Shown here one piece after another: positions 1,687 to 20,990 of a stretch of 35,442 nucleotides of DNA. The stretch comes from Clostridiales bacterium (GTDB lineage: Bacteria > Bacillota > Clostridia > Christensenellales > Aristaeellaceae): assembly GCA_022769795.1 (NCBI GenBank), contig JALEIQ010000027.1, positions 1 to 35,442 of the forward strand. Reading direction: 5' to 3'. The notes beneath the pieces are model-generated. The model saw only the letters and a list, made by a program, of their open reading frames with translations. It had not been told where the DNA came from and ran no database searches. Both the position numbers and the translations under genes were made by a program. The first letter of the stretch is position 1; each line of letters starts with the position of its first letter.

Positions 1687-1706
1687 CCAGGGAAGGGATA
1701 CTTGCT

Positions 1707-2816
1707 ATGCGCATCAACGTTACCCGTAGCTCCATGCCCGGCTTTGAGGAATACTGCCGGGAAATACGCAGCCTGTGGGATTCCCACTGGCTTACCAACA
1801 ACGGCGAAAAACTTATCAGCCTGCAAAAGCAGTTGGGCGAATACCTGCATACGCAGCATGTTTCGCTGTTCAGCAACGGCCACCTGGCGCTGGAAGCGCT
1901 GCTGGCCGCGCTGGATTTACAGGGCGAGGTAATCACCACGCCGTTCACCTTTGCCTCCACCACGCACGCCATCGTGCGCAAGGGGCTTACCCCGGTGTTC
2001 TGCGATATTCGTGAAAGCGATTATACCCTCGATCCCGATTTGCTGGAATCCCTTATCACGGAGCGCACCTGCGCTATTTTGCCCGTGCATGTGTATGGCT
2101 GCCTGTGCGATGTGCAGCGTATTCAGGCGATTGCGGACAGGCATGGCCTGCCTGTGATCTACGACGCGGCGCATGCCTTTGGCGTAAAGCTGGGCGGCGT
2201 GCCAGCCGCCTGCTTCGGCCTGGCCAGCATGTTCAGCTTTCACGCCACAAAGGTGTTCCATACCATTGAGGGCGGCGCGGTGACCACGCAAAGCCAGGCG
2301 CTTTGCGAAAAGCTTCAGTTGGAGCGCAACTTTGGCATCACCGGGCCGGACGACGTGGTAAGCGTGGGCGGCAACGCCAAAATGAACGAGTTCCAGGCCG
2401 CCATGGGCATATGCAACCTGCGCCACCTGGACGGCGAGATTGCCGCGCGCGGGCATGTGCACGAAGCCTATACGGCCCAGCTTGAGGGGCTTGAGGGGCT
2501 GCGCCTGCCGCCCGCGCAGCCGGGCGTGGAAAGCAACTATGCCTATTTCCCCGTGGTGTTCGCGGGCGGGCGGGCCGTGCGCGACGCGGTGTGCGAGGCG
2601 CTTGCCGAGGAGAGCGTATACGCGCGCAAATACTTCTATCCCCTGATTACGGATTACGAATGCTACCGTGGAAGGCCCGGCTTTGATACGCGGCGTGTGC
2701 CCATAGCCCACCGCATATCGGACAGCGTGGTCACGCTGCCCCTGTACCCCAGCCTTTCGGACGAGGATGTTGCGCTCATCTGCGGCGTTATCCGCCGGGT
2801 GCTCTCCCGTGGCTGA
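1707..2816 (+). CDS. DegT/DnrJ/EryC1/StrS family PLP-dependent aminotransferase (nucleotide-sugar aminotransferase)
   Basis: VIYDAAHAFGVK and SFHATKVFHTIEGGAV (PLP lysine region). Start trimmed from the ORF track to ATG 1707. Confidence 0.92.
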   Translation: MRINVTRSSMPGFEEYCREIRSLWDSHWLTNNGEKLISLQKQLGEYLHTQHVSLFSNGHLALEALLAALDLQGEVITTPFTFASTTHAIVRKGLTPVFCDIRESDYTLDPDLLESLITERTCAILPVHVYGCLCDVQRIQAIADRHGLPVIYDAAHAFGVKLGGVPAACFGLASMFSFHATKVFHTIEGGAVTTQSQALCEKLQLERNFGITGPDDVVSVGGNAKMNEFQAAMGICNLRHLDGEIAARGHVHEAYTAQLEGLEGLRLPPAQPGVESNYAYFPVVFAGGRAVRDAVCEALAEESVYARKYFYPLITDYECYRGRPGFDTRRVPIAHRISDSVVTLPLYPSLSDEDVALICGVIRRVLSRG

Positions 2817-4281
2817 CACACGCGGCCGCAAGGCCGCCTCCTCCTTTCTGTTCAAGCTTGTGGAAAGCCTGGGCATGCAGGGCATTTCCTTTGTGGTCAG
2901 CATCGTTTTGGGCCGTCTGCTGGATCCGTCGGATTACGGCGTGCTCACCCTCCTTACGGTGTTCATCGCCGTTTCGCAGGTGTTTGTGCAAAGCGGGCTC
3001 AACACGGCGCTCATCCAAAAAAAGGACGTGGATGAAACAGACCTGTCCTCCGTATTTTACGTAAGTCTGGGCGTGGCGGCGGCGCTGTACGCGCTTTTGT
3101 ACGCGCTTGCCCCCGCCATCGGCGCGTATTTCGCCATGCCGCAGCTGGCGCCCGTGCTGCGGGTGCTGGCGCTGGTGCTTTTGCCCGGCGCGCTTACGTC
3201 TGTGCAAAACGCGGTGGTGGCCCGGCAAATGGCCTTTCGCAGGCTGATGCTGGCAAGCCTGGCCACAACCGTGCTGTCCGGCGCGGTGGGAATTAGCATG
3301 GCGACGGCGGGCCTGGGGTACTGGGCGTTGGTAGGGCAGCAGCTTACCAGCCAGACAAGCCTGGCCTGCCTGCTGCTTGTGATGATCAAATGGCGGCCCC
3401 GCCGGCTGTTTTCCTGGCCGCGCGTTCGCGGGCTGATTGCCTTTGGCTGGAAGCTGCTGGCCTCCAGCCTGCTGGAAACCGGCTACAACAACCTGCGCAC
3501 CGCCGTAATCGGCAAAAGGTTTTCCCAGGATACGCTGGGATTTTATAACCGCGGCAAGCAGTTTCCGGAGCTGATGATGAACGCGGTAAACGGCTCCATT
3601 CAAAGCGTGATGCTGCCCGTGCTTGCCGAAAAGCAGGAGGACGTGTCGCGCATGAAGCAGATGATGCGGCGCTCCGTGATGGTATCCAGCTTTTTGGTGC
3701 TGCCGATGATGGCAGGCCTGGCGGCGGTTGCCGCGCCGCTGGTGGAGCTGCTGCTTACCGAGAAATGGCTGCCCTGCGTGCCGTTTCTGCAAATCTGCTG
3801 CGTTGATTTTGCGTTCTACCCCATCCACACGGCCAATTTGCAGGCCATCAACGCCATGGGCCGCAGCGATGTGTTTCTCAAGCTGGAGCTGATCAAAAAA
3901 AGCTATGGGCTGGTCATTTTAGCCGTGACCGTGTTCTGCTTTGACAGCGTTCTGGCCATTGCCTGGGGCGCTGTGGCAAGCACGCTGCTTTCCGCCGTGG
4001 TCAACGCCGCGCCCAACCGCAGGCTGCTTGGCTACGGCTATCTGGAGCAGATGCGGGATGTGCTGCCCTCCATGGCGCTGGCGGCGGTCATGTTTGCCGC
4101 CGTATCGGCCCTGGGGCGGCTGCCGCTTGCGCCGCTTATGCTGCTGGCCGTCCAGGTGCTTGTGGGAATCGCGGTATACGGCGGGCTGGCGCTGCTGTTT
4201 CGCATGGAAAGCCTGCGCTATCTGCTGGATATGTTAAAGCGCCTGCTTGGCAGGCGCGCAGCCGGGAGGGAAACGGTATGA
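2809..4281 (+). CDS. Lipopolysaccharide/polysaccharide flippase-like (Wzx/MATE-MOP superfamily) membrane protein
   Basis: GTG start at 2809 overlaps the upstream stop. Multi-TM protein with N-terminal SSFLFKLVESLGMQGISFVVSIVLGRLLDPSDYGVLTLL, typical of the Wzx/RfbX family. Confidence 0.9.
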   Translation: MADTRGRKAASSFLFKLVESLGMQGISFVVSIVLGRLLDPSDYGVLTLLTVFIAVSQVFVQSGLNTALIQKKDVDETDLSSVFYVSLGVAAALYALLYALAPAIGAYFAMPQLAPVLRVLALVLLPGALTSVQNAVVARQMAFRRLMLASLATTVLSGAVGISMATAGLGYWALVGQQLTSQTSLACLLLVMIKWRPRRLFSWPRVRGLIAFGWKLLASSLLETGYNNLRTAVIGKRFSQDTLGFYNRGKQFPELMMNAVNGSIQSVMLPVLAEKQEDVSRMKQMMRRSVMVSSFLVLPMMAGLAAVAAPLVELLLTEKWLPCVPFLQICCVDFAFYPIHTANLQAINAMGRSDVFLKLELIKKSYGLVILAVTVFCFDSVLAIAWGAVASTLLSAVVNAAPNRRLLGYGYLEQMRDVLPSMALAAVMFAAVSALGRLPLAPLMLLAVQVLVGIAVYGGLALLFRMESLRYLLDMLKRLLGRRAAGRETV

Positions 4282-5222
4282 CGGTCACGCTGGTCACATC
4301 CGCAGGTTCGGCCTCCGCTTCGGCGGTGATTGAACGCTTGCACGCCCTGGGGCATCGGGTGGCGGCATGCAACATCTATCCGCGGGAATGGAACCAGGCC
4401 TGCATGGAGGCCGACGCTTTCTTTCAGGCTGTGCCCGCCTCCGACGCGCGGGCCTATACCGCGCAGCTTGAGGACGAGGTAAGGCGCGAGGGAATCCGTT
4501 ACCTCATCCCCCTCACGGATGTGGAGGTGGATGTGCTCTGCGCCCAAAAGGCCCGCTTTGCCGCGCTGGGCTGCACCATATGCGTACCCGACGAGCCCTG
4601 CGCGCGCCTGTGCCGCGACAAGCTCAAGATGGCGCAGGCCTTGCAGCAGGATGGCGTATGCCGCACCATTCCTACCTTTTCGCCCTATGAGGAATCGGAT
4701 TTTTCCTTTCCGCTCATGCTCAAGCCCCTTCATGGCCGCAGCAGCCAGGGTCAGGCCGTGGTACGCGGCAGGGAGGCGCTTCTTTCCGCCCTCTCCGCGC
4801 GGGATGATTACATCGCGCAGCCGTTTTTGGACGGCCCCGTTTATACCGTGGACGTGGCGCGCGACCGCTTTGGCCATGTGCAGGCGCTGGCCCGGCTGGA
4901 GCTGCTGCGCACGGTAAACGGCCTTGGCACCACGGTGCGCGTGCTTCCCGGCCATCCGCTGGAGGACGTGTGCGCCCGCATCGCCGCGCGCGCGGGCGTG
5001 GTAGGCGTGGTAAACATGGAGTTCATTGAGCACGACGGCGAATATTGGTTTTTGGAGGTCAACCCCCGCTTCTCCGGCGGGCTGGGCTTCAGCGTAACGG
5101 CTGGGGTGGATTTTCCCGCGCTGAACATCCGCTGCCATGCGGGCGAGGCCATTGGCGCGCGCGCGGAGGCGCGCGCCTGCGTAATGACGCGCAGCATCTC
5201 GCCAATCGTTACCGCCGAATAA
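4278..5222 (+). CDS. ATP-grasp domain protein (carbamoyl-phosphate-synthase-like/PylC-like)
   Basis: ATGA overlap with the upstream gene. Rossmann-like N-terminus TLVTSAGSASASAVIERL, FPLMLKPLHGRSSQG, and ATP-grasp C-terminal GVVNMEFIEHDGEYWFLEVNPRFSGG. Confidence 0.88.
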   Translation: MTVTLVTSAGSASASAVIERLHALGHRVAACNIYPREWNQACMEADAFFQAVPASDARAYTAQLEDEVRREGIRYLIPLTDVEVDVLCAQKARFAALGCTICVPDEPCARLCRDKLKMAQALQQDGVCRTIPTFSPYEESDFSFPLMLKPLHGRSSQGQAVVRGREALLSALSARDDYIAQPFLDGPVYTVDVARDRFGHVQALARLELLRTVNGLGTTVRVLPGHPLEDVCARIAARAGVVGVVNMEFIEHDGEYWFLEVNPRFSGGLGFSVTAGVDFPALNIRCHAGEAIGARAEARACVMTRSISPIVTAE

Positions 5223-5246: not shown

Positions 5247-6590
5247 ATGCGCATCGCTCAGATCAATGTTACCGCCACGCTCAGCACCGGCCGTATCGCC
5301 GTCGCGCTGTGCCGCACGGCTATCGAGGCCGGTCACCGCGCGCTGCTATGCCATTCGCGCGAGCACGCCCCGGGCGATATTCCCAGCCTGCGCATCGGCA
5401 ACAAGCCCGATCTCTATGTGCATTTGGGCCTGGCCAGGCTAACCGACCGGGCGGGCTTTTTCAGCCGCTTGGCAACCAAAAAGCTCATCCGCCAGTTGGA
5501 AGCCTTCAAGCCGGATCTGATTCACCTGCACAACCTGCACGGCTACTATTTGCATCTGCCTACGCTGTTTCGCTACCTGAAGGAAAAGGATTTGCCCGTG
5601 GTATGGACCCTGCACGACTGCTGGGCCTATACCGGCCATTGCGCCTACTATACCCTGGCCCGCAACGCGCCGCCGCTAAGGGAAGCCAAACGCCGCCGCG
5701 CCGCGCAGGAGACCCTTGGCTGCGACCGCTGGCAGGGCGGTTGCGGGCATTGCGTGCTCAAGCACGCCTATCCCGCCAGTTGGCTGCTAGATCAAAGCGC
5801 GCGCAACTGGCGGGAGAAGCGGCAGTTGTTTTGCGGGCTCAAGCATATGGTGCTGGCCACCCCCAGCGAATGGCTTCGGGACGAGGCGCTGCATTCCTTT
5901 TTGGGCGGCTATCCCATCTATACGCTACCCAACGGCATTGACCTTGAAGCCTTCCAGCCCTGCATGGACGAGCAGTTCATGCGCGACGTGGTCAAGTTTT
6001 ACGGCCTGGAAAACACCGGCGGGCGCAAGTTGGTGTTGAGCGTGGCCGCCGTATGGGACGAGCGCAAGGGACTTGAGGACCTGATCGCGCTGGGAGAGGC
6101 GCTTGGGCCCGAGTACTGCGTAGCCGCCGTTGGCCTGGACGAATACCAGCTCGCCGCCCTGCCCAAGGGCACGGTGATGGGCGTGAAGCGCACCGGCAAC
6201 CTCAAGGATTTGTGCGCCCTGTATACCGCCGCCGACCTGTACGTGAGCGCCAGCCATGAGGAAAGCATGGGCATGACGCTGCTGGAAGCGCTGGCCTGCG
6301 GCACGCAGGTGCTTTGCTACGACGCCACCGCCATGCCCGAGATCGTAACAGGCGATGTGGGCGAGGTTGTTCCTTTGGGGGACGTTCCCGCCATGGCGGC
6401 GGCCGTGCGCCGCCTGTGCCAGGCCCCGCGCAGCGCGGCGGCCTGCCGTGCCCGCGCCGCCGCTTATGAGGCCTCCAAGTGCTTTGGCGCATACCTGCGC
6501 CTGTATGAAAACATGTATCGCCACAGCCCGGCCTATGAGCGCGCCGTGCAAAGCGCGCGGGAAAAGGCGCGGCCAACTGTCGAAGATTGA
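5247..6590 (+). CDS. Glycosyltransferase family 4
   Basis: DLIHLHNLHGYYLHL, TLHDCWAYTGHC, VSASHEESMGMTLLEALACGTQVLCYDATAMPEIV. RBS GAAAGGAG. Confidence 0.92.
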   Translation: MRIAQINVTATLSTGRIAVALCRTAIEAGHRALLCHSREHAPGDIPSLRIGNKPDLYVHLGLARLTDRAGFFSRLATKKLIRQLEAFKPDLIHLHNLHGYYLHLPTLFRYLKEKDLPVVWTLHDCWAYTGHCAYYTLARNAPPLREAKRRRAAQETLGCDRWQGGCGHCVLKHAYPASWLLDQSARNWREKRQLFCGLKHMVLATPSEWLRDEALHSFLGGYPIYTLPNGIDLEAFQPCMDEQFMRDVVKFYGLENTGGRKLVLSVAAVWDERKGLEDLIALGEALGPEYCVAAVGLDEYQLAALPKGTVMGVKRTGNLKDLCALYTAADLYVSASHEESMGMTLLEALACGTQVLCYDATAMPEIVTGDVGEVVPLGDVPAMAAAVRRLCQAPRSAAACRARAAAYEASKCFGAYLRLYENMYRHSPAYERAVQSAREKARPTVED

Positions 6591-6620: not shown

Positions 6621-8666
6621 ATGCCGGTTTTGAAACGTTTCGCGCTGGCGCTTAGCTGCCTTATCGGGCTTATGCTGCTTTCCGCCTGCGGCATGCCGGA
6701 AAACCTGAGCGCCCTCCTTTCAGCCCCAAAGGAGGCCTCCGGGCCCGATTTGCGGCTGCTGGACTGGCCCGAGGTGGAATCCGCGCCCACCGCCGTCCAG
6801 GAGCCGGGCGGTGAAGGCGTGCTGCGCGTGGATTTGTGGCTGGATGCCTCGCAGGTGATGGGCGGCATCAGCCCTAATGAAACGGGCCTGTACCCCCATT
6901 TCAGCCGCAAGTACCGCGAGGGGGGCTTTCATTACCGCCTTGGCAACACCGTGGGCATGTACGAGGGCGTGCTGCGCGGCATGCTGGCCGCGGCGGAAGG
7001 CTCGCGCACGCGCATCCTGCGCTATGGCAACGAGCGCCTGCCGGACGATTATCTTGCGGCGCAGGGCGTGGCGGGAGAAAACGCCACAGCCAGCGAGCTG
7101 CGCTCGCTGCGGCGTGATATGCTCACCTATGCCATCGATCCCATGCCCACCGTGTTTTCGGAATTTTCCGCCGAGGATATGTCCGGCAGCTTTTACAGCC
7201 TGGGTTCCCCCGCCATGGAGCGCGTTTCGCGGCTTGCGCCTGAAATGCTGGAAAACCCGGAAAAGGCGGATGCGATGGCTGCGGCGGTTTCGGCGCAGCG
7301 CTCGTCCATTGAGGCGGGAGGCGGTGGCGCGCTGCTGGCCGTGGGCGACGATACGGACTATCCGCTCTTATACGCGCTGGACAACCTGGATTTGACCCGC
7401 TTATCCGTCATTGTGTGCGACCCCGCCGCCATCCGCAGGTTAAGTGGCGTTTCGGCGGACGGCACGCCCGTTGACTATGTGCAAAGCCTGCTGGAAGAAC
7501 GCGGTGTGTTTGACGCGGGCCTTTGCGTTGGGCTGTACGCCTTTACGCTGGATTATATGGGGCAGATGGGCAGCTTTGGCGCGGCTGATTTTAGCGAGCC
7601 CGTTTTGTGGGGCAAGCTGAGCTATAGCACCAAAAGGCAGGCCATCCAGGGCGCTCTGCCCATGCCGCGCACGCTCCTGTGCCTGGTGGTGGGCGCGCCC
7701 GACCAGGTGGAGGCGTATACCGAGGCGCTGAACGCGCAGCTTAGCGCCTCTCCCGCGCTGCGGGAGCTCAGAGGCCCTGAAAAGGGCGAGCTGGTCTATA
7801 CCCAAAACGGCGAAACCGTCACGCAGCAGCCCTTCTCCTTCGCGTACCGCTATTTGCAGATTGAACGCCCCACCCTATCCTGCCATACCCAGCATACGGC
7901 CGGAGCCGTACTCTCCTGCGAGGATGGGCATATTTCCACAGAAGGCAGCCTGTCCACGCTCACGCTTGAGCCAGCGGACGGCGGCGTGCCGCCCGATTGC
8001 ACGCTCACCCTTATGCTTCCGCAGAGCAGCCTGCCGGGCGGGCTGGACAAGGCGCTCGACAGCCTTGTAGATTCCGGCGCCAGCGTGCAGGCCGCGCTGC
8101 TGCTCACCCAGGAGCTGCCCATCACCGGGGATACGCCCGCGAATGGACAAGCGCTTCCGCTGCGCGACAAGCTGTATGTATTCACCCGTGAGGATGCGGC
8201 CTTCCAAAGCGGCGAGGCCCCCAACCCCTTCCGGCTGACCGGCCTGCGTCAGAACGGCGGCGCGCTGGAGGCCGAGGTTTCCGTCAGCGGTTCCCTGCTG
8301 CGCCCCGGCTATTACCGCGTGCTGCTCACCGCCAGCCTGCCCGGAAACCAGCTAGGCTGGGAAAACGCCCCCTGGGTGGACGAGCTGAACGTAACCCTCA
8401 CCAACGAGCAGATTTCCGAATGGGAAAGCTTTACTCAGCTCATTACCCAATATGACCGCGATACCCCCAGCGTGCCCCGGCAGTTTCAGCACGCCTGGGG
8501 CGCGGCCACGGACAGCGCCTATCACGGCATGCCCATTCCGGACTTTCCGCCCGTGATGCGCGCGCCCGGCTTGAGCGAGCTGGTCAGCCAGCTCCGCGCC
8601 GCCGCCACGGTGGACAGCCTGCCGCTGATTCGCTATGTGTTTGATGTATTCGTCACGGGTTCGTAA
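6621..8666 (+). CDS. Predicted lipoprotein with a degenerate vWA-like motif, unknown function
   Basis: Signal peptide plus lipobox MPVLKRFALALSCLIGLMLLSAC; LRVDLWLDASQVMGG resembles a degenerate MIDAS (DxSxS-like). ATG 6621 chosen over the tracked 6594. Confidence 0.75.
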   Translation: MPVLKRFALALSCLIGLMLLSACGMPENLSALLSAPKEASGPDLRLLDWPEVESAPTAVQEPGGEGVLRVDLWLDASQVMGGISPNETGLYPHFSRKYREGGFHYRLGNTVGMYEGVLRGMLAAAEGSRTRILRYGNERLPDDYLAAQGVAGENATASELRSLRRDMLTYAIDPMPTVFSEFSAEDMSGSFYSLGSPAMERVSRLAPEMLENPEKADAMAAAVSAQRSSIEAGGGGALLAVGDDTDYPLLYALDNLDLTRLSVIVCDPAAIRRLSGVSADGTPVDYVQSLLEERGVFDAGLCVGLYAFTLDYMGQMGSFGAADFSEPVLWGKLSYSTKRQAIQGALPMPRTLLCLVVGAPDQVEAYTEALNAQLSASPALRELRGPEKGELVYTQNGETVTQQPFSFAYRYLQIERPTLSCHTQHTAGAVLSCEDGHISTEGSLSTLTLEPADGGVPPDCTLTLMLPQSSLPGGLDKALDSLVDSGASVQAALLLTQELPITGDTPANGQALPLRDKLYVFTREDAAFQSGEAPNPFRLTGLRQNGGALEAEVSVSGSLLRPGYYRVLLTASLPGNQLGWENAPWVDELNVTLTNEQISEWESFTQLITQYDRDTPSVPRQFQHAWGAATDSAYHGMPIPDFPPVMRAPGLSELVSQLRAAATVDSLPLIRYVFDVFVTGS

Positions 8667-8678
8667 GGAGGGGAAAGC

Positions 8679-9302
8679 ATGGCAGCCGCCGCGCGCCGCA
8701 TACGCATACGCCGCACAAACCGTCTGAAATGCCTGGTATGCTACCTGGTGTGCTTTGCTTTGCCGGTTTTGTGGCAGTTTATCGGGCTTTGGCTGATTTA
8801 TCCCTATAAGCTGGCCGCTACTGCGCCCAACGCGGCGGCGGCGCTTGCACGCCTTGCGCCCCTGCCGGCCCTCGCAAACCTGGCGCAGCGCTGCACGGCG
8901 GCGGCGGACGCCGCTCCCCAGGCCGTGCGCGCTGCCATGGCCGCCCGCGAGCAAAGCTGGCTGGCCCTTGTTGCCGCGTGCGCACTGGCCGCATGGCTGG
9001 TAACGCTCATTGCGCAGCTCATTTGGCGCGGCGTGAACCATAAGCCCACGCAGGCGGCGCGCGCCACGCAGGCCGCCATACTGGCTTACCGGCTGAATAT
9101 GCTGGTCATCTGGCTGTGCAACGCGGCCTTCGCGGCGGCGCTGTGGTTCCTTGGCGCCAGGCAAATCGCCGGCTTTGCCCAATGGGATGCGCTGTGCTAC
9201 TTTGGCGTATACCTTCTGAACCCTCTGGCGGCAATCTGCGTATCCCGCCTGGCCGCGCCGCCCACGCTAAGCGCAAGGCACGGCTTTTTCAAGCGCTTGT
9301 AA
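8679..9302 (+). CDS. Predicted integral membrane protein (about 4 TM), unknown function
   Basis: Hydrophobic segments CLVCYLVCFALPVLWQFIGLWLIY, LALVAACALAAWLVTLIAQLIW, MLVIWLCNAAFAAALWFLGA, YFGVYLLNPLAAICVSRLA. RBS TAAGGAGGGG. Confidence 0.75.
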   Translation: MAAAARRIRIRRTNRLKCLVCYLVCFALPVLWQFIGLWLIYPYKLAATAPNAAAALARLAPLPALANLAQRCTAAADAAPQAVRAAMAAREQSWLALVAACALAAWLVTLIAQLIWRGVNHKPTQAARATQAAILAYRLNMLVIWLCNAAFAAALWFLGARQIAGFAQWDALCYFGVYLLNPLAAICVSRLAAPPTLSARHGFFKRL

Positions 9303-9314
9303 GGAGGTGCGTAT

Positions 9315-10940
9315 ATGGGCTGCTATGTGATCGCCGTGGGCGGCACGGGCAATAAGGTGCTGGAAGGCATGGTTTACGCCGCCTGCGCGGACGCCTTTTA
9401 TACCCTGGACAGTCTTGGCAGGCGCAAGCCCATTCCCATGCTTACCATGCTTTCGGTGGATGTGGACGCTGCCTGCGGCAACACCACCCGCGCAAAGCGC
9501 GCCGCGGAATACTACGAGCAGGTGCGCAAGGCCTTTGACGCGGCGCCCATCGCCCACCGCTGCTTTCACACGCGCCTCTCGCTGAACCGCTGGAGCATGA
9601 ACCTGAGCCGCCGCGCCGCCTCCATAAAGCAGATGGCGCAAAGCCACGGCGCGGATCAGCTGCTTGCCCGCGCTCTGTTCACCTCTACGGAGGCCAATCT
9701 GGAATATAGCGAGGGCTTTCGCGGCCATCCGGATTTGGGCGTATTGTTCTTTTCCGATCTGCTGGGCTCGCTGGAGGAGGCGCGCGCCCAGGGCCTGCCG
9801 GATGAGCTCAACAGCCTGATCGACTGCATGGAAGACGACCTGGCGCGCGGCGGCGAGGTGCGCCTGCTGCTGGTTGGCAGCATTTTCGGCGGCACGGGAG
9901 CCAGCGGCATTCCCGCCCTGAGCAAGTATTTGAACGCCCGTTTTGCCGCAAGCCGCGAGCGCTTTATCATGGGCGCGGCGCTGATGCTGCCCTATTACAG
10001 CGTGCCCGCCTCCGGGGTGGATACCGGCCGTGAAATTGCCGTGGACAGCGGCGAGTTCCTGGACAAAGCCCGCACGGCGCTGCAATATTACGGCATGGAA
10101 GGCATGATCCGCGACGGGGAGGAGGATACGCGCGGCATTTTTGACGCCGCCTATCTGCTGGGCCTGCCGCCTGAGCACTTTGTGTCCACGCGCGTGTATT
10201 CCACCGGCTCCCAAAGCCAGGAGAACGACGCGCACATGCTGGAATGGATGGCCGCGCGCTGCGCCGCCCGCTTTTTCCGCACGGGCTTTCGCGGGGCGGA
10301 CGCCGCCCATATCGACTGCTACTATTACCAGTGCCACAGCCCGCGCTTTGGCTGGGACAGCTTTGACGCGGAGGCGGCGCTCTATCGCGCCCGCTATGGC
10401 GCGCTGCTCAAGTCGGCGGCCGTGTTTTTCAGCGAATGCTATCCCACGCTGCGCGGGGTGTTCGCCGGCAGCGACCGGCGGGGCGCTCGCGTAGGGTACG
10501 TTGCCGCCTATTTTCACCGGCTTGGGCGCTTCACGGCCTCCCAGCGGGCGCTGTTAAGCGCGCTCCTGGAGGCGCTGTACCACCTTTTCGCCTTCTATAC
10601 AAACTGGCTGCACCAGGTGCTCTACACGCTTCCGCCCGCCATGCGCGGCGCGGAGGGCGAGCCTGGCCGCCTGCCCCAAAACGCCCTGCTGGACGCATCT
10701 GTGATGGACGCTCTGCACAGCATTCTTTCGGCCAACGGCTCCGGCGCGGAAGCCAACCGCGCCTGCCAGCAGGCGCAGCAGGGGCTGGCAAAGCTGGTAA
10801 AGGGCGGCGCGCCGGACCGCTATACCATGGAGCGTGTCATCAGCGCGCTCAACGGCGGCTCCGCCGTTGGTTCCGGCCCGGAGGCGGCCTTCGCCAGCTA
10901 TTTAGGCACGCTGCTTTCCGCCGTAATGGATAATGATTAG
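9315..10940 (+). CDS. Tubulin-like (Tubulin_2 / FtsZ-like) protein
   Basis: N-terminal MGCYVIAVGGTGNKVLEGMVY (Rossmann/T1-like loop) and LLLVGSIFGGTGASGIPALSKYL (tubulin/FtsZ GGTGSG-like T4 signature). RBS AAGGAGG. Confidence 0.8.
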   Translation: MGCYVIAVGGTGNKVLEGMVYAACADAFYTLDSLGRRKPIPMLTMLSVDVDAACGNTTRAKRAAEYYEQVRKAFDAAPIAHRCFHTRLSLNRWSMNLSRRAASIKQMAQSHGADQLLARALFTSTEANLEYSEGFRGHPDLGVLFFSDLLGSLEEARAQGLPDELNSLIDCMEDDLARGGEVRLLLVGSIFGGTGASGIPALSKYLNARFAASRERFIMGAALMLPYYSVPASGVDTGREIAVDSGEFLDKARTALQYYGMEGMIRDGEEDTRGIFDAAYLLGLPPEHFVSTRVYSTGSQSQENDAHMLEWMAARCAARFFRTGFRGADAAHIDCYYYQCHSPRFGWDSFDAEAALYRARYGALLKSAAVFFSECYPTLRGVFAGSDRRGARVGYVAAYFHRLGRFTASQRALLSALLEALYHLFAFYTNWLHQVLYTLPPAMRGAEGEPGRLPQNALLDASVMDALHSILSANGSGAEANRACQQAQQGLAKLVKGGAPDRYTMERVISALNGGSAVGSGPEAAFASYLGTLLSAVMDND

Positions 10941-10962
10941 ACAGCCGAAAGGAGGGGATTGT

Positions 10963-13900
10963 ATGCGCCGCGATCAAAAGCAGGCCCTGGATCAGGAAAC
11001 GCCCTATCTTACGCTGCTGCCGCCAATGGACGAGGGCTTTCACACGGGCTACCACACGCAGCCCGGCATTGTGAGCGACCATAACCAGCGTCCGCGCGAA
11101 TGGCTGGAAAGCCTGGCGCGCTACATGCGCACGCCGGGAAACGACGTAAGCTATTCCATTCCCAGTGTGCTTAGCGGCGAACAGCAGCTGCGCCGCCTTG
11201 CGCGCATAGCCTCCTCGCGCGCCCTGGCGCACCCCAGGCTTTTGGAATATCGGGCCGTGCTCGCCCTGCTTTTGCTGTGGGATACCTGGCCCAGGGACGA
11301 TAGCTGGCCTTCTCTGGAGCTTATTTCCCTGGGCGGCGAAACCGCCCTTTCCATGAGCGTGCTGGCGGCGCTACCCGCCCGGCGTGCGGAGGACGGGCTG
11401 TGGGTGTTTACGCTGCGCGCCCCCGGGGCCGCGGCCCAACCCCAGCCTATCGCGCTGCTTTCGCGCGATATGGCCGTTGTGCCCGCCGCCAACCCCGGCG
11501 ACCTGAGCTCCCTGCTGCCGCCCTGCGTTACCTGGTATGACCGCGCGCGCCAATGCTATCTGGAGCCCTGCCCCCTCCTGTGCGAGCGCGACGCGGCGAT
11601 TCTAAGCGCGCGCCTGCGCATGCTGCAAGCGCTCAACGAGCAGCCCGCCCTGCACAGCCCGCTCTATTCCCCGAACGCGGAGCTCTGCGCGGTGCTTTCC
11701 GCCTTTGTGGACGAGCTTGCGCTCGCCCGCAGGCCCTGGCGCGATAAGCTGGAGCGGGCGGATGAAAGCGCCCTGCGTTCGTTGCGCCTGCGCCTGCTGG
11801 GCGCATATGCGCCGGGCCTTTCTGCGATCTCCTCCGGCACGCAAATGGTTTCCGCCGGTGCCTTCGCGCCCGGCGAGAACCCCCTGCTTCGCGTATTCCT
11901 GCGGGAAAGCGTTCCCGAAATTCGCGGCGGCTCAACCCTTCTATACACGCTTGAGGGCGAGCCCTTTGCCTGCGCCTCCGACGCTTATGGCGTGGAGCCC
12001 GCGCGCACGCCTAACGAGCAGCAAACGCTTGACCGGCTTGAAAAGGAGCTTTCCCTTTTGGAGCGGAACGAACCCGCCTGGCGGCTGCAAGCCGCCGGGG
12101 CCCTGCGCGGCCTTGCGCGGGAGGTAAAGGACAGGCCCGGCCTATGGCCGCAGCTCCCGCGGCTGCTGTCCGCCTGGGCGCATGAGCTGGAAAGCCAGCC
12201 CGCGCCCGCCAGCCGTGTTCTCACCCTGTCCTATCCGCTGGAGGCCCAGCCCGCCGCGCTGCAACACATTCTGGCCTCCATGTTCGGCTCCATGGACGCG
12301 GCGGCGGCCTCGCAGCCCTTCGCGGACTGCCTGCTGCTTGCGCAGGGCCAGCCGCCCTTTGATAGCGCCGCCCTAAACGAGCGTTGCCGCGTAGAGCACA
12401 ACGGCGCGGCCTGCTATGCCATTCCCCCGCTTTCTCCGCAGCTGTGCGCATGGCTGACCGCACGCGCGGAGGAAGCGCCCGAAACGGCGCCCGTTCTTGA
12501 AACCGGCAGCCTGTCGTTTTCCTCTGTCAGCGATGGCAAGGCCATTCTCGCTTCCTTCCGCCTTTCCTGCCGCCTGCCCGGGGATGAGGCCTGCCGCGTA
12601 AGCGCCGTTACCTTCCAGCGCGCCTATACGCTGTCCGGTCAGGCGCAAAGCGGCGCGGCTATCCTGCTGCCGGAGGCTTCTGTGCCGCAAATCACGCTTT
12701 GGCCCAGGGCGCACTTTGCCCCCGGCCTGTGGAAGCAATATTTCATCCATGCCCACGCGCCAGGCAGCCTGGAGGTGTGGGGGCTTTCCAGCGGCGGTTG
12801 GCGGCAGGGAACGCCGTTCAACCGCGAAACCGGCGCCTGGCAAACCGTATGCACCGACCGCTTTCCTTCCTTTGTGGCGCTTCGTCAGGGAGGCCTGTCC
12901 CTGGGCGCGGTGCCGTGCTGCATACCGCTTCATCATATCAAGCATGAGCCCGTCGCCGTTGCCGCCATCGACTTTGGCAGTATCTCCACCACGGTCATGC
13001 TGCGCCAGGGCGAGCGCGTCCAGCCCGCCGTGCTGCCGGAATGCATGCATGCCCGGCTGCTGGGGCGCACGCCCGACGCGGACGTTTTGCGTGAGGAATT
13101 GCTGCCCCAGGATGTTCTGCTGCCCAACGCGCCCGTGGAGGCAACCTACTACAGCGTGATGGACATGTTCCGGGATCAGCCGGAGGCATGGAACGCCGTG
13201 TTGACGGACGGGCACATCTATTACCACAGCTCGCTGGGCCAGTTGATTGAAAAGGCCGCGGGCACGCTGTACTACGACCTGAAATGGGGCGGAGAGCCCT
13301 ATTCCCTGCGCTGCCTGCGCCTATTTTTGAAGCAGGTGATGACGCAGGCCTCCCTCAGCGCGCGGCTGTGGGGCTCGCCCAGCGTTTCCTGGCGCGTATC
13401 CATGCCCAACGCCATGCCCCCTCACAAGCAGGAGGCCTATCTTGAGCTGATGCGCGGCCTGGCGCGCGAGGTGGCCGCCGAAACGGGCCTTCCCCTTTCC
13501 CCAGACGGCCCCGCCGTGCTTTACGCCACCGAAAACCAGGCCGACGGCCTGTACTTTTTAAGCCGCAGCGAGGCCAACGCCCACAGCGGATACCTGAACC
13601 TGGATATCGGAGGAAGCACGACCGATCTTAGCCTGTGGCTGTGCAACGCCACCCATGCCACGATTGAATGCTCGCTGAGGCTTGGCTGTAGGCAAATGCT
13701 GTTTGATTCCCTGGGAGAAAATCATCTTGCCGACCTTGAAACGGATTTTTCCCAGGGCTCGGCAGCGCTTGCCGGGGCTGTGCGGCAAACGTCAGCCGCC
13801 CTGCGCCGGGAAAGCGCAACCGTGCGCGGCCGCCTGAAGTGCATGTTCCTGATGGACGACCTGTTTGCCGCCTATGCCCAGGATATCCGCGAGGCCATGG

Positions 13901-14523
13901 CGGTTTCCCGTTCCACCGGGCGCATCGGCTACGTGGAAAGCCTGCTCCTGTTTGAAATCGGCTTCCTGTACTATCTCTCCGGCGAGGTGCTGCACCGTGC
14001 CTGGCAGGACGAGGAGCTTCGTCCCCTGCTGCCGGAGCGCATGGCCCTGTGCATTGCGGGCAATGGCGGCCAGCTCGTCAAAATCTTCACGGACGAGCAG
14101 CAAACCCGCCTGTGCTCGCTGGCCCTATCCCGCCTGGAGGACGGCCATCCGCTGCGCGTGGTGCTGCCCATTCAAAGCCGCCATCCCAAGCAGGAGGTGG
14201 CGCGCGGCCTCCTGTGCCCGGACGCGCCGCTTAGCAGCGCTATCCAGGGGCTGGAGCGTTGGAACGGCACGCGCGCCTTTGGCGAAAGCGAGAGAGAGAA
14301 CCTTTTGCTCGGCTACCTTCCGCTGTTCTACCGCGTGTTTCCTCAGGCGGCGAACCGCCTAATGCCCAACGCCTTTGAAGGCGCAAACGGCGATGCGCTC
14401 ACCGCCACGGCTGCCATGGAGCTGGACACCATTTTTGAAAATGAAAAGCCACGCACCCCGGAGGATGACATGGCGATGTATGTGCGCTGCTTTATGCATT
14501 TGAAGCGGCTTTGGCGCTTATAG
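10963..14523 (+). CDS. Large protein (1186 aa) with C-terminal actin/Hsp70-like (ASKHA) ATPase domain
   Basis: PHOSPHATE1-like VAAIDFGSISTTVML (about aa 665), PHOSPHATE2-like YLNLDIGGSTTDLSLWL (about aa 877), adenosine-like ALCIAGNGGQLVKIF (about aa 1027). ATG 10963 follows AAAGGAGGGG. Confidence 0.78.
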   Translation: MRRDQKQALDQETPYLTLLPPMDEGFHTGYHTQPGIVSDHNQRPREWLESLARYMRTPGNDVSYSIPSVLSGEQQLRRLARIASSRALAHPRLLEYRAVLALLLLWDTWPRDDSWPSLELISLGGETALSMSVLAALPARRAEDGLWVFTLRAPGAAAQPQPIALLSRDMAVVPAANPGDLSSLLPPCVTWYDRARQCYLEPCPLLCERDAAILSARLRMLQALNEQPALHSPLYSPNAELCAVLSAFVDELALARRPWRDKLERADESALRSLRLRLLGAYAPGLSAISSGTQMVSAGAFAPGENPLLRVFLRESVPEIRGGSTLLYTLEGEPFACASDAYGVEPARTPNEQQTLDRLEKELSLLERNEPAWRLQAAGALRGLAREVKDRPGLWPQLPRLLSAWAHELESQPAPASRVLTLSYPLEAQPAALQHILASMFGSMDAAAASQPFADCLLLAQGQPPFDSAALNERCRVEHNGAACYAIPPLSPQLCAWLTARAEEAPETAPVLETGSLSFSSVSDGKAILASFRLSCRLPGDEACRVSAVTFQRAYTLSGQAQSGAAILLPEASVPQITLWPRAHFAPGLWKQYFIHAHAPGSLEVWGLSSGGWRQGTPFNRETGAWQTVCTDRFPSFVALRQGGLSLGAVPCCIPLHHIKHEPVAVAAIDFGSISTTVMLRQGERVQPAVLPECMHARLLGRTPDADVLREELLPQDVLLPNAPVEATYYSVMDMFRDQPEAWNAVLTDGHIYYHSSLGQLIEKAAGTLYYDLKWGGEPYSLRCLRLFLKQVMTQASLSARLWGSPSVSWRVSMPNAMPPHKQEAYLELMRGLAREVAAETGLPLSPDGPAVLYATENQADGLYFLSRSEANAHSGYLNLDIGGSTTDLSLWLCNATHATIECSLRLGCRQMLFDSLGENHLADLETDFSQGSAALAGAVRQTSAALRRESATVRGRLKCMFLMDDLFAAYAQDIREAMAVSRSTGRIGYVESLLLFEIGFLYYLSGEVLHRAWQDEELRPLLPERMALCIAGNGGQLVKIFTDEQQTRLCSLALSRLEDGHPLRVVLPIQSRHPKQEVARGLLCPDAPLSSAIQGLERWNGTRAFGESERENLLLGYLPLFYRVFPQAANRLMPNAFEGANGDALTATAAMELDTIFENEKPRTPEDDMAMYVRCFMHLKRLWRL

Positions 14524-14847: not shown

Positions 14848-15273
14848 TCACAGGTACGCCTTCATGCGTTCCACATTGCTTTCCTGCGCTTTCAGCAGCC
14901 TTTTGCCCAGGCCGCGCGCCGCTTCGTCCCGCCCCTGATAGTCGTTCAGATGGCGAATGGTCTTTACAATGCCCATCGTGGTGCCCTGTACCATCATTTC
15001 CGCGATTTTGCTTCGGGAATCGTCCAGCGCCAGTTGACCCATGCTCATCATTTCAGAGGAGATGCGCGCCATCGTCCCCACGCCGCCGGGCGTATCGCCC
15101 GCCTGGCGAATCATGCCGTCCGCCTCTTTGCGGATATGGCCGTATTCCTCATGCTCGCGCCCCAGTTCCTCCCTGAGCTCGCCCCCGGCGCGTTCCCGCA
15201 CCGTTTCAATGCCCTGGCAGCCCATATCCGCCGTTTTGTAGATGTATTGCAGCAGCTCCATTTCCGGCAACAT
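14848..15273 (-). CDS. Conserved-looking hypothetical protein, small and helical (about 141 aa)
   Basis: MLPEMELLQYIYKTADMGCQGIETV...; good RBS (GAGGTGAGGA) before ATG 15273; predominantly charged/helical composition. Confidence 0.7.
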   Translation of the reverse strand: MLPEMELLQYIYKTADMGCQGIETVRERAGGELREELGREHEEYGHIRKEADGMIRQAGDTPGGVGTMARISSEMMSMGQLALDDSRSKIAEMMVQGTTMGIVKTIRHLNDYQGRDEAARGLGKRLLKAQESNVERMKAYL

Positions 15274-15355
15274 CAATCCTCACCTCACGGGCAGTATGCC
15301 CGAAGGCGCGTTTTTGTATGCCTGCGTTATCCAAGCGCCGCGCGAAATGCCCTGT

Positions 15356-16849
15356 TTATTTTGTTTCCACCCAGGCCCTGCTGCGCTCCACCGCGCGGTG
15401 CCAGCCATACAGCACCAGTTCGCGGTCGCTGCCGGACATGCGGGGCTGGAAGGTTAAATCGGGCCGTACCATGGAGGCGGCCTCCTCCTTGCTTTGGTAT
15501 ACACCAGCGCCCAGTCCGGCCAACAGCGCCGCGCCCAGCGCGGTGGTTTCCAGCACAACCGGCCTTACCACCGGCACGCCCAGCACATCGGCCTGAAACT
15601 GCATCATAAAGCCGTTGGCGCTTGCGCCGCCGTCCACGTTCATATGGCGCGGCATGCGGCTGCCGCGATCCGCCACCATCGCGCGGAACAAATCGCAGCT
15701 CTGGTAGCATATGGCCTCCAGCGCGGCGCGCACGATATGCGCGCGGTTGGTGCCGCGCGTCATGCCCACAATGGTGCCCCGGCTATACATATCCCAATAC
15801 GGCGCGCCCAGGCCCGTAAAGGCGGGCACCAGAAACACGCCCGCCGTATCGGGTACGCTTTCGGCCAGCTGCTCGCTTTCGGCGGCGGTTTGAATCAGGC
15901 CCATCTCGTCGCGCAGCCATTGTACGGTGGCGCCGCCCATAAACACGCTGCCCTCCAGCGCGTAGGTCGGCCTGCCATTTAAGCGCCAGGCCATGGTGGT
16001 CAGCAGCCCGTTGTTGCTTTCCACTGGCACCTCTCCGGTGTTCATCAGCATAAAGCAGCCGGTGCCATAGGTGTTTTTCACCATGCCGGGCTCAAAGCAC
16101 GCCTGGCCAAACAGCGACGCATGCTGATCTCCCGCCATGGCCGCCACGGGAATGGGCCTGCCCAGAATCTCCGGCCTCAGGTTGCCGATTACCTGCGCGG
16201 TATCCATCACCTGCGGCAGCACAGTTCGCGGAATGTTCAGCATTTCAAGCAGTTCGCTGTCCCACTCCTGCGTGCGCAGGTTAAACAGCATGGTGCGCCC
16301 CGCGTTGGTCGCGTCCGTCACATGAGGACGCCCCTCCACCAGGTTCCATGCCAGGAAGGAATCCACCGTGCCAAAGCATAGCTCGCCGCGCTCCGCCCGC
16401 TCGTGCAGGTTCAGCGTATCCAGCAAATACGCCAGCTTCGTGCCGCTGAAATACGCGTCGGGCACAAGGCCGGTCTTTTGGCGGATCATTTCGCTGCGGC
16501 CCTCTTTCACAAGGCGCTCCACATAGGGCGCGGTGCGGCGGCACTGCCATACGATGGCGTTGTGCACGCATTGCCCCGTGGCCTTCTCCCACAGGAGGGT
16601 GGTTTCCCGCTGGTTGGTAATGCCGATGGCGGCGATATCGCGCACGTCCACCCCGCTCATCTTGACCGCCTTTTGTAGCGCCTCCACCTGTGTGTTGAGG
16701 ATGTCGTCCGGGTCGTGCTCCACCCAGCCGGGCTGGGGATAATGCTGCTTGAACTCAATGGCGTGCGAAGCCAGCGTTTGCCCATGCTCGTCAAACACGA
16801 TGGCCCGGCTGGAGGTGGTTCCCTGATCCAACGCTACCAAAATACGCAT
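15356..16849 (-). CDS. glpK: Glycerol kinase
   Basis: MRILVALDQGTTSSRAIVFDEHGQ, GITNQRETTLLWEKATG, MAGDQHASLFGQACFEPGMVKNTYGTGCF. Confidence 0.97.
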   Translation of the reverse strand: MRILVALDQGTTSSRAIVFDEHGQTLASHAIEFKQHYPQPGWVEHDPDDILNTQVEALQKAVKMSGVDVRDIAAIGITNQRETTLLWEKATGQCVHNAIVWQCRRTAPYVERLVKEGRSEMIRQKTGLVPDAYFSGTKLAYLLDTLNLHERAERGELCFGTVDSFLAWNLVEGRPHVTDATNAGRTMLFNLRTQEWDSELLEMLNIPRTVLPQVMDTAQVIGNLRPEILGRPIPVAAMAGDQHASLFGQACFEPGMVKNTYGTGCFMLMNTGEVPVESNNGLLTTMAWRLNGRPTYALEGSVFMGGATVQWLRDEMGLIQTAAESEQLAESVPDTAGVFLVPAFTGLGAPYWDMYSRGTIVGMTRGTNRAHIVRAALEAICYQSCDLFRAMVADRGSRMPRHMNVDGGASANGFMMQFQADVLGVPVVRPVVLETTALGAALLAGLGAGVYQSKEEAASMVRPDLTFQPRMSGSDRELVLYGWHRAVERSRAWVETK

Positions 16850-16851
16850 GC

Positions 16852-18342
16852 TTAAGCCTCCGTTTCCAAAAATAATGCTTCCTTACGCCGCGCCATCTCC
16901 TCAACGCGGTCAATATATACGCTCACATTGCTCACATTGGGTGCGCGCACAATGCGCAGCTCCCTGTCCGGAAAAACCCGCTTGCTGATAGCGCCCGCCC
17001 CCATGGCCAAAATGGAGGTATTCTCCTCCATAATGTCCACGTTGTACAGGCACGCCGTGCCCGGACGGGCGTAGCCCACGTTTTGCTGCTGGCCCGCCAT
17101 ATACTTTTGGCGGTACAGATAATAGGGCCTCAGGCCCAGGCTGCTTGCCGCCTGCTCGCCCAGGCGCACCATCCCGGCTGCGGTATCGCCCTCCGGCAGG
17201 GGGTAACGCTCCAGGTTCAGGCGGCTGGAACGCTTAATCGCCAGCGTGTGCACCGTAAGGCTGTCAGGCCGCAGGCGCACAACGGCCTCCATGGTACGCG
17301 CAAAGGCGGCGATATCCTCCCCCGGCAGCCCGGCGATCACATCCATGTTGATATCGGCAAAGCCAAGCTCCCGCGCCAGCAAAAACGCTTCCTCCGTCTG
17401 CGCCGCGGTATGGTCACGCCCAATGGCGCGCAGGGTTTCGTCGTTCATGGTCTGCGGGTTGATGCTGATGCGCCCAACGCCTAGCCGCCTGAGCGTTTCA
17501 AGCTTGCCCCGCGTGATGGTATCGGGCCTGCCCGCTTCCACGGTGTATTCCCGCGCGCCCGGGAACAGGCGCATGGTTTCCTCCATCAGGCGGGCAAAGG
17601 CGCCTTCATCCAGCGCGGACGGCGTGCCCCCGCCCACATACAGGGCGCGCAGACGCAACCCCGTTCGAGAAAGCAGCTTCGCGCCCCGGCGCATTTCGTA
17701 GAAAAGCGCGTCCAGATAGGGCGGGATCAGCTTGCCCTTTCCCACGGCCTCCCCCGGAAAGGAGCAGTAGGCGCAGCGCGTGCGGCAAAACGGGATGGAC
17801 AGATACACATCCGCCTCCTCCGGGCTGGGCGCGGGCAGCTTTTGCTGCTCGAGCACAATGCGCCTGAGCAGCTCCGCCTTTTCATCGCTCACGTCAAAGG
17901 TATCCTGAAGGTAGCGCACGGCATCGTCCATCGCGCGCCCTTCGGCCAGGGCCTGGTACAGCAGGCGCGTGGGCCGTATGCCCGTAAGCGAGCCCCAGGG
18001 GGGCCGCCTGCCCGTAAGCTGCCTGAGCAGGCCATACAGCGTCTTTTTGCAAAGGCGCTTGCGCACGCGCTTCAAGGCCACCGCAAAATGGCCGTCCTCC
18101 TCCGAAAAGGCGCCGGCCTTCGGAAGCGTTACACACAGCACGCAGCTTTGGCCGCGAAAATCAAATTGGCTGCGCGCGTTGCCGCCGGCATCCTCCGTAT
18201 ACGTGTGGATAAGCGGCTCCGCGCCCGGCGCGTCCTCGTTTACCCAATAGCCGTCCACGGCGAAAAACAGCTTCAAAACGTCGCACAGGTCGTTGGCAAA
18301 GCCCGCGAGCGGCGTATGAAGCGCAATGCTTACATGTTCCAT
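16852..18342 (-). CDS. hemZ: Radical SAM coproporphyrinogen III dehydrogenase-like protein (HemZ)
   Basis: VYLSIPFCRTRCAYCSFPG (CX3CX2C), LYVGGGTPSALD, RISINPQTMNDETLRAIGR; HemZ-style N-terminal extension. Confidence 0.88.
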   Translation of the reverse strand: MEHVSIALHTPLAGFANDLCDVLKLFFAVDGYWVNEDAPGAEPLIHTYTEDAGGNARSQFDFRGQSCVLCVTLPKAGAFSEEDGHFAVALKRVRKRLCKKTLYGLLRQLTGRRPPWGSLTGIRPTRLLYQALAEGRAMDDAVRYLQDTFDVSDEKAELLRRIVLEQQKLPAPSPEEADVYLSIPFCRTRCAYCSFPGEAVGKGKLIPPYLDALFYEMRRGAKLLSRTGLRLRALYVGGGTPSALDEGAFARLMEETMRLFPGAREYTVEAGRPDTITRGKLETLRRLGVGRISINPQTMNDETLRAIGRDHTAAQTEEAFLLARELGFADINMDVIAGLPGEDIAAFARTMEAVVRLRPDSLTVHTLAIKRSSRLNLERYPLPEGDTAAGMVRLGEQAASSLGLRPYYLYRQKYMAGQQQNVGYARPGTACLYNVDIMEENTSILAMGAGAISKRVFPDRELRIVRAPNVSNVSVYIDRVEEMARRKEALFLETEA

Positions 18343-18347
18343 TCCTC

Positions 18348-18971
18348 TTATGCCTCCGTGCGGTCGCGGCCCACGCTTCCCGGCCCGTCATGCCCGGGAT
18401 AGGCGGTCTGCCTGGGCGAAAGATGATACAGCGCGCGCAGCGATTCGCGCAACTGGCTGAAGCTGCCGTCCGGAAAATCCGTGCGGCCATAGCCGTGGGC
18501 AAACAGCGTGTCGCCCGTAAGCACACCCTGGTTCTCAGGCAGGAGATAGCACACGCTGCCCACGCTGTGGCCGGGCGTGTGTAGCACGCCAATGTCCATG
18601 CCCGCCAGCCGGAGCGTTTCGCCCCCGCAAAGCGGCTCGGGCCGGGTATACGCGGCCCCCTCGCGTCCGAACAGGCGCGCCATGTTGGAAACGCAATCCC
18701 TTAGCTTGGGAATATCCGCCTCATGCACATACAACGGAATGCCAAAATGACCGCACACCGCGTCCACCGCGCCGATGTGATCCCAATGCGCGTGCGTCAA
18801 AAGCACCGCGGCGGGCCTGCGCTCCCCCACCTTGCGGATGATGCGCTCCGCCTCCGCCCCGGGATCCACAATCACGCATTCCCCCGTCTGCGTGTTTTCA
18901 ACAATGTAGCAATTTTCCTCAATATCGCCAACAGGAAGGCGTTCCACACGGATTGCAGGCATCGCGCTCAA
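18348..18971 (-). CDS. MBL-fold metallohydrolase (glyoxalase II-like)
   Basis: LLTHAHWDHIGAVDAV, HTPGHSVGSVCYLL, LTGDTLFAHGYGRTDFPDGS. Confidence 0.94.
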   Translation of the reverse strand: MSAMPAIRVERLPVGDIEENCYIVENTQTGECVIVDPGAEAERIIRKVGERRPAAVLLTHAHWDHIGAVDAVCGHFGIPLYVHEADIPKLRDCVSNMARLFGREGAAYTRPEPLCGGETLRLAGMDIGVLHTPGHSVGSVCYLLPENQGVLTGDTLFAHGYGRTDFPDGSFSQLRESLRALYHLSPRQTAYPGHDGPGSVGRDRTEA

Positions 18972-18983
18972 GCGCCCCTTTCC

Positions 18984-19433
18984 TCAAAACAGCTTGCGGG
19001 AATCCAGCAAAATGGTCACCGGCCCGTCGTTTACCAGGCTCACCTTCATATCCGCGCCAAACACGCCCGTGTCCACGCGAATTCCCTGCTCCCGCCATTC
19101 CCTCACCAGCGCCTCGTACATGGGATTTGCCTTTTCGGGACGGGCAGCCGTGATAAAGCTGGGCCTGCGTCCGCCGCGCGCGTCCCCCAGCAGCGTAAAC
19201 TGGCTTACGGCCAAAATCTCCCCGCCCACGTCCTTGAGGGAAAGATTCATCTTTCCGTTCTCATCCTCAAACACGCGCAAATTGGGCACCTTCTCGGCAA
19301 TATAGCGCCTGTCCGCCTCGGTATCCCCGGTTTCCACGCCTATCAGCGCCAAAAAGCCTCGTCCAATACTTCCAACCGTTTCGCCGTTTACGCGAACGCA
19401 GGCTTCCGTCACCCGTTGAACGACCGCGCGCAT
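18984..19433 (-). CDS. dtd: D-aminoacyl-tRNA deacylase
   Basis: [49 protein letters not shown]. Start trimmed to ATG 19433. Confidence 0.96.
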
Positions 19434-19449
19434 GCTTACCAACCTCCCG

Positions 19450-20961
19450 TTAAATCAGCCGCAGCAAAAGCCTGCCCCGGCTGTCCTCCGCCACAAGCTC
19501 ATAGTTGTTTCCGATGTAGTCAATCGTATCATCCGTCAAAATACCGCGGTAGTTTTCCACGTCGCGGTTCAGCAGGATGGCCTGAATCTCGTTTTCCATC
19601 AAAAAGGCTTCAAAGTCGTGCTCCAAATCCGCGCCTACGTTATCCATCACAAAGCCAATCACGTTATAGTACTTATAGGCGGGCTGCAGCCCCGTGTACC
19701 AGTACCATTCCGGTGAAACGCCTATGGAATAGACCGAATCCGCGCACTCCTCCAATTCCGGCAACAGCTCCCGCTGGTACGCGGCAAACTGCTCCTGCGC
19801 CTGCCGCTCCGCCGCCGCGTTTTGCGGGGTGAGCGCGCACGCAGCCGGTACCAAAACCACAACCGCCAGCGCCGCGGCGATTGCGCCCTGCGCCCAGGCA
19901 AGCCGCGGCTTCCAAGCGCGCACAGCGCCCAAAACCGCGCTCAGCGCCAACAGCGCCGCCAGCACGGTGCTGGCAATCTCCATCATCAAATGCTGGAAAA
20001 AGCCCGTTCCCGCAATATAGCCCACCAGCAGGTTGGCCAGCATCAAAGCTGCCGTATAGCCTATGAGCATACCCTCGCGCCGGGCAGCCGCCCCGCGGCG
20101 CAAAAGCAGGCGCATAACAAGCGCACCCACGGTATACAATACGGGCTTCAGGCTTTCCCAGCCGTAGGCGTGGGTGATTAAGTACAGGCGCATTTCCCAA
20201 AAGTCCACATTTTTGGCCGTGCCCACATGCACAAAGTTGTTCAGAATGTACTCCGTAAACATGGGCCCAACCGCGTCCATGCGCCACAGATAGGCAAATA
20301 CCGGAAGCGAAACCGCCGCAATCCCCGCCAAAAACTTGAGCGCCTCTTTCCAAAAGCCGCGCCTGGTTTTGATCACATACCCGGCGTAAAACAGCGCCGT
20401 CACGCCCAGGCCCAAAATATCGCTGATTTTAATCAGCGCGACCGCGCCCACAGAAACGCCCAGCCAAAACGCGCGCAGCCTTTCGCCCGAGGTTTGGCCG
20501 GTGCATACGTGCACCATCACCGCCACGCCCACCAGCAGGAAGAACAGGTCGTATTCCTCGCAGTACTTCGCGCCCACGTTTTGCACATACACCCAGACAG
20601 GAACCACCGCGCATAGAATGCAGCGTTTATCGCCCGTCAGCCAGCGTGCCATACGCAAAATCAGCACGCAGCCGCCCAGCGTCATAAGCAGTTCCAGCAC
20701 ATAAACGCCCGCCGTGCCTTCCACAATCATCTGCGGCAGCATCATCATTAAAAAGAACAGCGGCCCCTTGTTTTCCGTAATATCCACGTAGGGCGTCATA
20801 CCCTGCGCCATGCCGCGCCCCATGCACATAAAGATTCCGTTATCTGAGCTAATCTGCCCAAATACCGGGTTATTCGCAAAGCCTCCCAGGCACACGAGCA
20901 GCACAACCAGCAGGCAGGCAATCTTCTGCGCCAGATAGCCGCGTTCTTTTACCTTTGTCAT
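19450..20961 (-). CDS. Multi-TM membrane protein, GT39/ArnT-like glycosyltransferase
   Basis: Many TM segments; [21 protein letters not shown] motif typical of GT39-like integral membrane transferases. Confidence 0.75.
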
Positions 20962-20990
20962 GCACATTCCTCACTTTTGTACGCAACCTG

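Follow-up and report, generated by a model that had tools for sequence, protein, structure and literature searches.

What might a bacterium do with a locus that encodes a tubulin-like and an actin-like protein beside a lipoprotein and a membrane protein? As a rule, proteins of the tubulin fold and those of the actin fold serve different cytoskeletons; FtsZ and FtsA are the familiar case of the two working as a pair. We analyzed a 35,442-nucleotide stretch of DNA (hereafter the window), which is an entire contig of a 2.85-Mb metagenome-assembled genome (MAG) from a Clostridiales bacterium. On its plus strand lie, in order, genes for an exported lipoprotein (6621-8666; 681 aa, or 690 aa from an in-frame ATG at 6594), a four-TM integral membrane protein (8679-9302; 207 aa), a Tubulin_2/FtsZ-like-1 protein (9315-10940; 541 aa), and a large ASKHA protein (10963-14523; 1186 aa, or 1196 aa from an in-frame ATG at 10933). 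The gaps between them are 12, 12, and 22 bp, and AAGGAGG-type ribosome-binding sites precede genes 2, 3, and 4, in agreement with the original prediction of a same-strand set with gaps of 12-22 bp and strong ribosome-binding sites. Searching the four proteins against NCBIfam, PADLOC, and Pfam gave no match except Tubulin_2.

The original prediction also called for a check of whether the same four genes recur around homologs of the tubulin-like protein, and they do. Of 424 relatives confirmed for this protein the best 80 were kept, and 32 of their loci carry the lipoprotein, TM, tubulin-like, and ASKHA genes on one strand and in that order, with 24 in Bacillota, two each in Bacteroidota, Cyanobacteriota, and Calditrichota, and one each in Nitrospirota and Acidobacteriota. 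An ASKHA match lies beside the tubulin-like gene in 56 of these best 80 loci; because the loci were gathered through the tubulin-like gene, the sample is uninformative about ASKHA genes that occur elsewhere without it. Several cyanobacteria have the lipoprotein gene on the opposite strand, a short way upstream, and the same gene set, mostly named hypothetical, occurs on two cyanobacterial plasmids whose genes had been called independently (NC_014503.1, NZ_CP016476.1). As gene order is conserved across phyla, chance clustering of the four genes is excluded, and we conclude that they are a conserved, almost unannotated module present in at least six phyla. In this set of 80, the nearest relatives come from Clostridia MAGs, Candidatus Limiplasma pullicola among them. 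Within the window's family, the tubulin-like gene was found in 30 and the ASKHA gene in 44 of 150 genomes, and the module is patchily distributed in the order (8 of 297 genomes), the genomes compared being mostly incomplete MAGs. We also observed some 20 loci, mostly from Selenomonadaceae, with a tubulin-like gene, usually a TM gene, and no ASKHA match nearby (L131, L133, L135, L137, L139, L142-L144, L147-L149, L151, L152, L154, L156, L157, L159, L163, L165, L173); at L137 a protein-kinase-like ORF, identified by eye, lies upstream instead. The two plasmids that carry the module (L233, L234) are mobilizable.

The product of gene 3 has the tubulin/FtsZ-type loops that had been read from its sequence, GGTGNK (T1) at residues 9-14 and GGTGASG (T4) at 192-198. 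All 31 aligned members match Pfam Tubulin_2 (PF13809) with E <= 0.01 (best 1e-11), and the window protein alone reaches 24.6 bits (E = 1.8e-5), just below the curated cut-off of 27 bits. The T1 GG.G and T4 FGGTGA motifs are invariant in the 31 members, across phyla. By Pfam matching and loop conservation, gene 3 is thus a member of the Tubulin_2 (FtsZ-like-1) family with a predicted tubulin fold. Its match to PF00091 was under the cut-off (E = 0.17), its profile had no significant similarity to FtsZ in an hhalign comparison with three FtsZ sequences, and the same profile returned nothing meaningful from PDB sequences. The protein was absent from the phage collection searched.

Gene 4 encodes a protein with a phosphate-1 motif (DFGSIST, residues 670-676), a phosphate-2 motif (DIGGSTTD, 881-888), and an adenosine motif (AGNGG), with an ATPase core at about 660-1090. 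The key motif residues (DFG...T in phosphate-1, D.G in phosphate-2, and those of the adenosine motif) are invariant across 48 members. A structure model (pLDDT 87.2) gave 50 listed PDB matches in Foldseek, all of the Hsp70 type with probability 1.00 (best E = 2.8e-8), and relatives of the protein have weak MreB/FtsA Pfam matches. The ASKHA assignment, made originally from phosphate motifs, is upheld by the model, and the large protein is a predicted ATPase of the Hsp70/actin fold. For its first 640 residues no family assignment was obtained. SrfB of enterobacteria, which we took to be a candidate ASKHA relative, was rejected, with no Pfam match in support of the kinship and nothing on point in a literature search. 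In one locus (L098:6443-9628, G002:C27) the ASKHA frame contains three in-frame TAG stops, indicating either a decayed gene or TAG recoding, and in some cyanobacteria the ASKHA profile also matches another ORF downstream (L136:14892-16913, L161:15412-16905, L171:16317-16904).

The first two genes would provide the envelope parts. The lipobox noted originally (LSAC) places the lipidated cysteine at Cys23, which is invariant across 38 relatives. The signal peptide and lipobox are followed by an alpha/beta domain (about residues 66-376), a beta-sandwich, and C-terminal helices. Most distant relatives have a MIDAS-type pattern, D-x-T/S-x-S-M-x-G-F/Y, and a later V-x-x-T-D; the window lipoprotein has a vWA/MIDAS-like counterpart, LDASQVMGG at 74-82 and VIVCD at 263-267, in which the last MIDAS serine is absent, one MIDAS serine having been lost in the window clade. 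Compared by hhalign with 12 vWA domains, the lipoprotein profile scored 68% (E = 4.9e-5), and three controls scored below 1%. The structure model (pLDDT 88.6, pTM 0.85) had no PDB match in Foldseek, so the vWA assignment rests on motif and profile; the protein had no Pfam match, and its profile found nothing meaningful among PDB sequences. With this moderate profile support, the exported domain is probably vWA-like. The 207-aa protein has the four hydrophobic segments expected of it, and most relatives conserve its gene immediately ahead of the tubulin-like one.

Gene fusions tie the tubulin-like and ASKHA proteins to each other. Every one of the six genomes sampled from one genus (group D, L081-L086) has a single 1720-1760-aa ORF, in which residues 2 to ~633 are a degenerate tubulin-like part (profile E down to 4.5e-40) and residues ~670-1650 an ASKHA part; in G107, a genome of another genus, the N-terminal ASKHA region alone is fused to the tubulin-like protein. 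These fusions point to two parts that are probably in contact. In 20 genomes of the family, from groups B and D, tubulin-ASKHA is kept and the lipoprotein gene was found nowhere in the genome; three lipoprotein matches, each spanning about 55 positions at the end with the signal peptide, were taken as chance. Most of these 20 genomes have T1 and T4 loops that are eroded or lost altogether. Group B shows a relaxed ASKHA phosphate-2 motif, and the ASKHA motifs are better preserved in the fusions. Loop erosion in lineages without the lipoprotein suggests that nucleotide use matters most where the membrane parts are present, but G107, which lacks the lipoprotein and retains intact tubulin loops, is a counter-example, so the coupling of loops to lipoprotein is not strict. 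Loss of the lipoprotein and decay may have been a single evolutionary event or several; an AU test did not reject one clade (p = 0.22).

In the window, the module follows genes for surface polysaccharide. A glycosyltransferase gene (GT4/GT1; 5247-6590, plus strand) lies directly upstream of the lipoprotein gene and is preceded on the same strand, at 718-5222, by genes for a GT2, a DegT aminotransferase, a polysaccharide flippase-like protein (Polysacc_synt_3), and an ATP-grasp protein. Because the glycosyltransferase gene ends at 6590, 30 bp before the module and on the same strand, the operon probably starts farther upstream. The surface-polysaccharide genes are probably context rather than module members. 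Several genomes of the window genus likewise have a GT4 glycosyltransferase gene immediately before the lipoprotein gene, with the module following surface-polysaccharide genes, and in groups B and D the module follows sugar transferase, nucleotidyltransferase, and epimerase genes. The original prediction is partly upheld. It is supported on the protein families, their recurrence, and the exported lipoprotein, and neither of the outcomes named as refuting it came about, the tubulin fold being judged by Pfam and loop conservation; a cytoskeletal role and a link from the outside lipoprotein to the cytoplasmic folds remain predictions. It missed the probable vWA-like domain, the tubulin-ASKHA fusions, and this glycan-gene context.

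The genes after the ASKHA gene vary in other phyla, with Hsp70 in Bacteroidota and Calditrichota and coiled-coil or lipoprotein genes in cyanobacteria. A MotA/OmpA (ZorA/ZorB-like) pair follows the ASKHA gene in a Phascolarctobacterium and a Pyrinomonadaceae genome. We observed MotA/ExbB-like and OmpA/MotB-like (ZorA/ZorB-like) genes at the module tail in L134:13803-16255 and L172:13969-16467, and a true Hsp70 gene directly after the ASKHA gene in L153, L155, L168, and L177 (PF00012, 1e-82 in L155), followed by a 670-750-aa protein in three of these four. The window locus has no ZorA/ZorB. Its own genome encodes a ZorA/ZorB-like MotA-OmpA pair on another contig, C205 (L226:731-3040), unlinked to the module; we dropped this pair as a motor partner, because 139 of the 150 family genomes have an OmpA/MotB-like match, whether or not they carry the module.

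Parts of this picture were already known. Makarova and Koonin (2010) defined FtsZl1 (Tubulin_2, PF13809) and its vWA neighbors and proposed a role in membrane remodeling (PMC2875224). As in our module, Tubulin_2 is encoded there beside membrane proteins, and beside a vWA protein whose counterpart in the module is probably vWA-like, but the partners named in the main text are P-loop GTPases, protein kinases, and OmpA proteins, with neither an ASKHA protein nor a fixed four-gene core. None of these three partners was found among the Pfam-scanned neighboring genes of the window, although they are frequent companions of FtsZl1 rather than a strict requirement. In Synechocystis PCC 6803, interruption of sll0445 (Tubulin_2), sll0446 (FtsA-like), or sll0447 impaired phototaxis in all three cases, and the three proteins co-fractionated with pilus assembly proteins (PMC9880817, 2021). 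Photosystem II fluorescence was altered in the same mutants (PMC9880817), and so the phototaxis phenotype may be indirect. Like motility genes, sll0445 and sll0446 have been linked to the regulators SYCRP1 and LexA (PMC2633013, PMC4759255, PMC12313861). Judged by domain content and gene order, sll0445 and sll0446 look like module orthologues: their cluster, sll0443-sll0449, has adjacent Tubulin_2 and actin-fold genes, and other cyanobacteria sampled carry the whole module, including the lipoprotein and TM genes. The Synechocystis cluster differs in having extra downstream genes, PMC9880817 gives no mechanism, and the window lineage, unlike Synechocystis, is non-photosynthetic Clostridia. The original statement, that no characterized system with this exact composition was recognized, was too strong, given these published mutants. 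Beyond the FtsZl1-vWA association of 2010 and the mutants of 2021, we found no paper on the four-gene core across phyla, on the fusion, or on a mechanism, the 2010 paper being covered by its main text.

We propose, with a probability of roughly 0.55, that the products of the four genes work together as a single envelope-associated machine, driven by NTPs and serving surface functions. We infer its topology, interactions, polymerization, and output as follows. The lipoprotein would display a vWA-like domain for binding on the outer side of the cytoplasmic membrane, with the 4-TM protein as its membrane partner. At the inner membrane face the Tubulin_2 GTPase would assemble, and the ASKHA ATPase would bind it directly, as an ATP-dependent switch or a co-polymer. 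Assembly, and through it the behavior or export of surface structures, would depend on the GTP and ATP state, with a motility or pilus function as the output in cyanobacteria and surface polysaccharide in the window lineage.

The Synechocystis results could also mean that the module is an accessory of the type IV pilus that positions or powers its assembly, a reading favored by impaired phototaxis, by co-fractionation with pilus assembly proteins, and by the motility regulators that govern sll0445 and sll0446. However, several module genomes, including G106, G126, and G144 (window genus), have no strong match to the T2SSE pilus ATPase, and the best true PilB-like matches fall in genera without the module, in both cases among incomplete MAGs. 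Because of the missing ATPase matches, we take the output to be a surface function in general rather than one of pili only; a type IV pilus as a module requirement was dropped on this survey, and an accessory role appears unlikely. We give somewhat less credence to a conflict or defense system of the type built from GTPase, tubulin, vWA, and HSP70 (Kaur et al. 2020), with assemblies of tubulin and HSP70 as the effectors against invaders. Tubulin, extracellular vWA, and HSP70 families do co-occur near the membrane in the GAP1-N2 DO-GTPase systems (PMC7159879), and ZorA/ZorB-like or Hsp70 genes follow the module in some other phyla. Yet the DO-GTPase, FNIII protein, and effector of those systems are all missing from the module, the DO-GTPase (PF19993) is absent from the window's own genome and gave no match above the cut-off in any of nine module genomes, and PADLOC returned nothing for the four proteins. 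The module core is, moreover, stable rather than variable across phyla, and the cyanobacterial counterpart mutants show a motility phenotype without infection.

Least probable, in our judgment, is a second FtsZ-FtsA-like pair in division or shape, in which the tubulin-like protein would form the filament and the ASKHA protein would be the adaptor that ties it to the membrane. The likeness is one of analogy: tubulin-fold and actin-fold genes lie together beside membrane proteins, as the FtsZ-FtsA pair acts at the membrane, and FtsA provides the nearest solved sequences to the ASKHA protein by profile, if weakly. But the module's ASKHA protein is about 1190 aa, with the 640-aa N-terminal part that lacks an assignment, and separate proteins would supply the membrane link. 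In addition, canonical FtsZ is already encoded separately in the window's own genome, the profile comparison with three FtsZ sequences was not significant, the patchiness within the order is unlike that of a division protein, and the Synechocystis interruption mutants are viable.

The envelope-associated machine may be taken a step further. More tentatively, and as a possibility that we would not yet bet on, it could be a trans-envelope cytomotive machine, widespread and ancient, whose tubulin-fold GTPase and actin-fold ATPase act together in one complex and either control an external vWA lipoprotein or are controlled by it, with the 4-TM protein as the linker. If true, this would be a second, unrelated pair of tubulin and actin folds that has a lipoprotein and a membrane subunit of its own, and so a new class of envelope machine, spread across at least six phyla in genes still annotated mostly as 'hypothetical protein'. 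The Synechocystis mutants make the module testable at once in a model organism. Beyond the module, the window's minus strand (14848-31130) carries unrelated genes, among them those for an FGGY kinase, a radical SAM protein, a metallo-beta-lactamase-fold protein, D-Tyr-tRNA deacylase, RelA/SpoT, and a LuxC acyl-CoA reductase.
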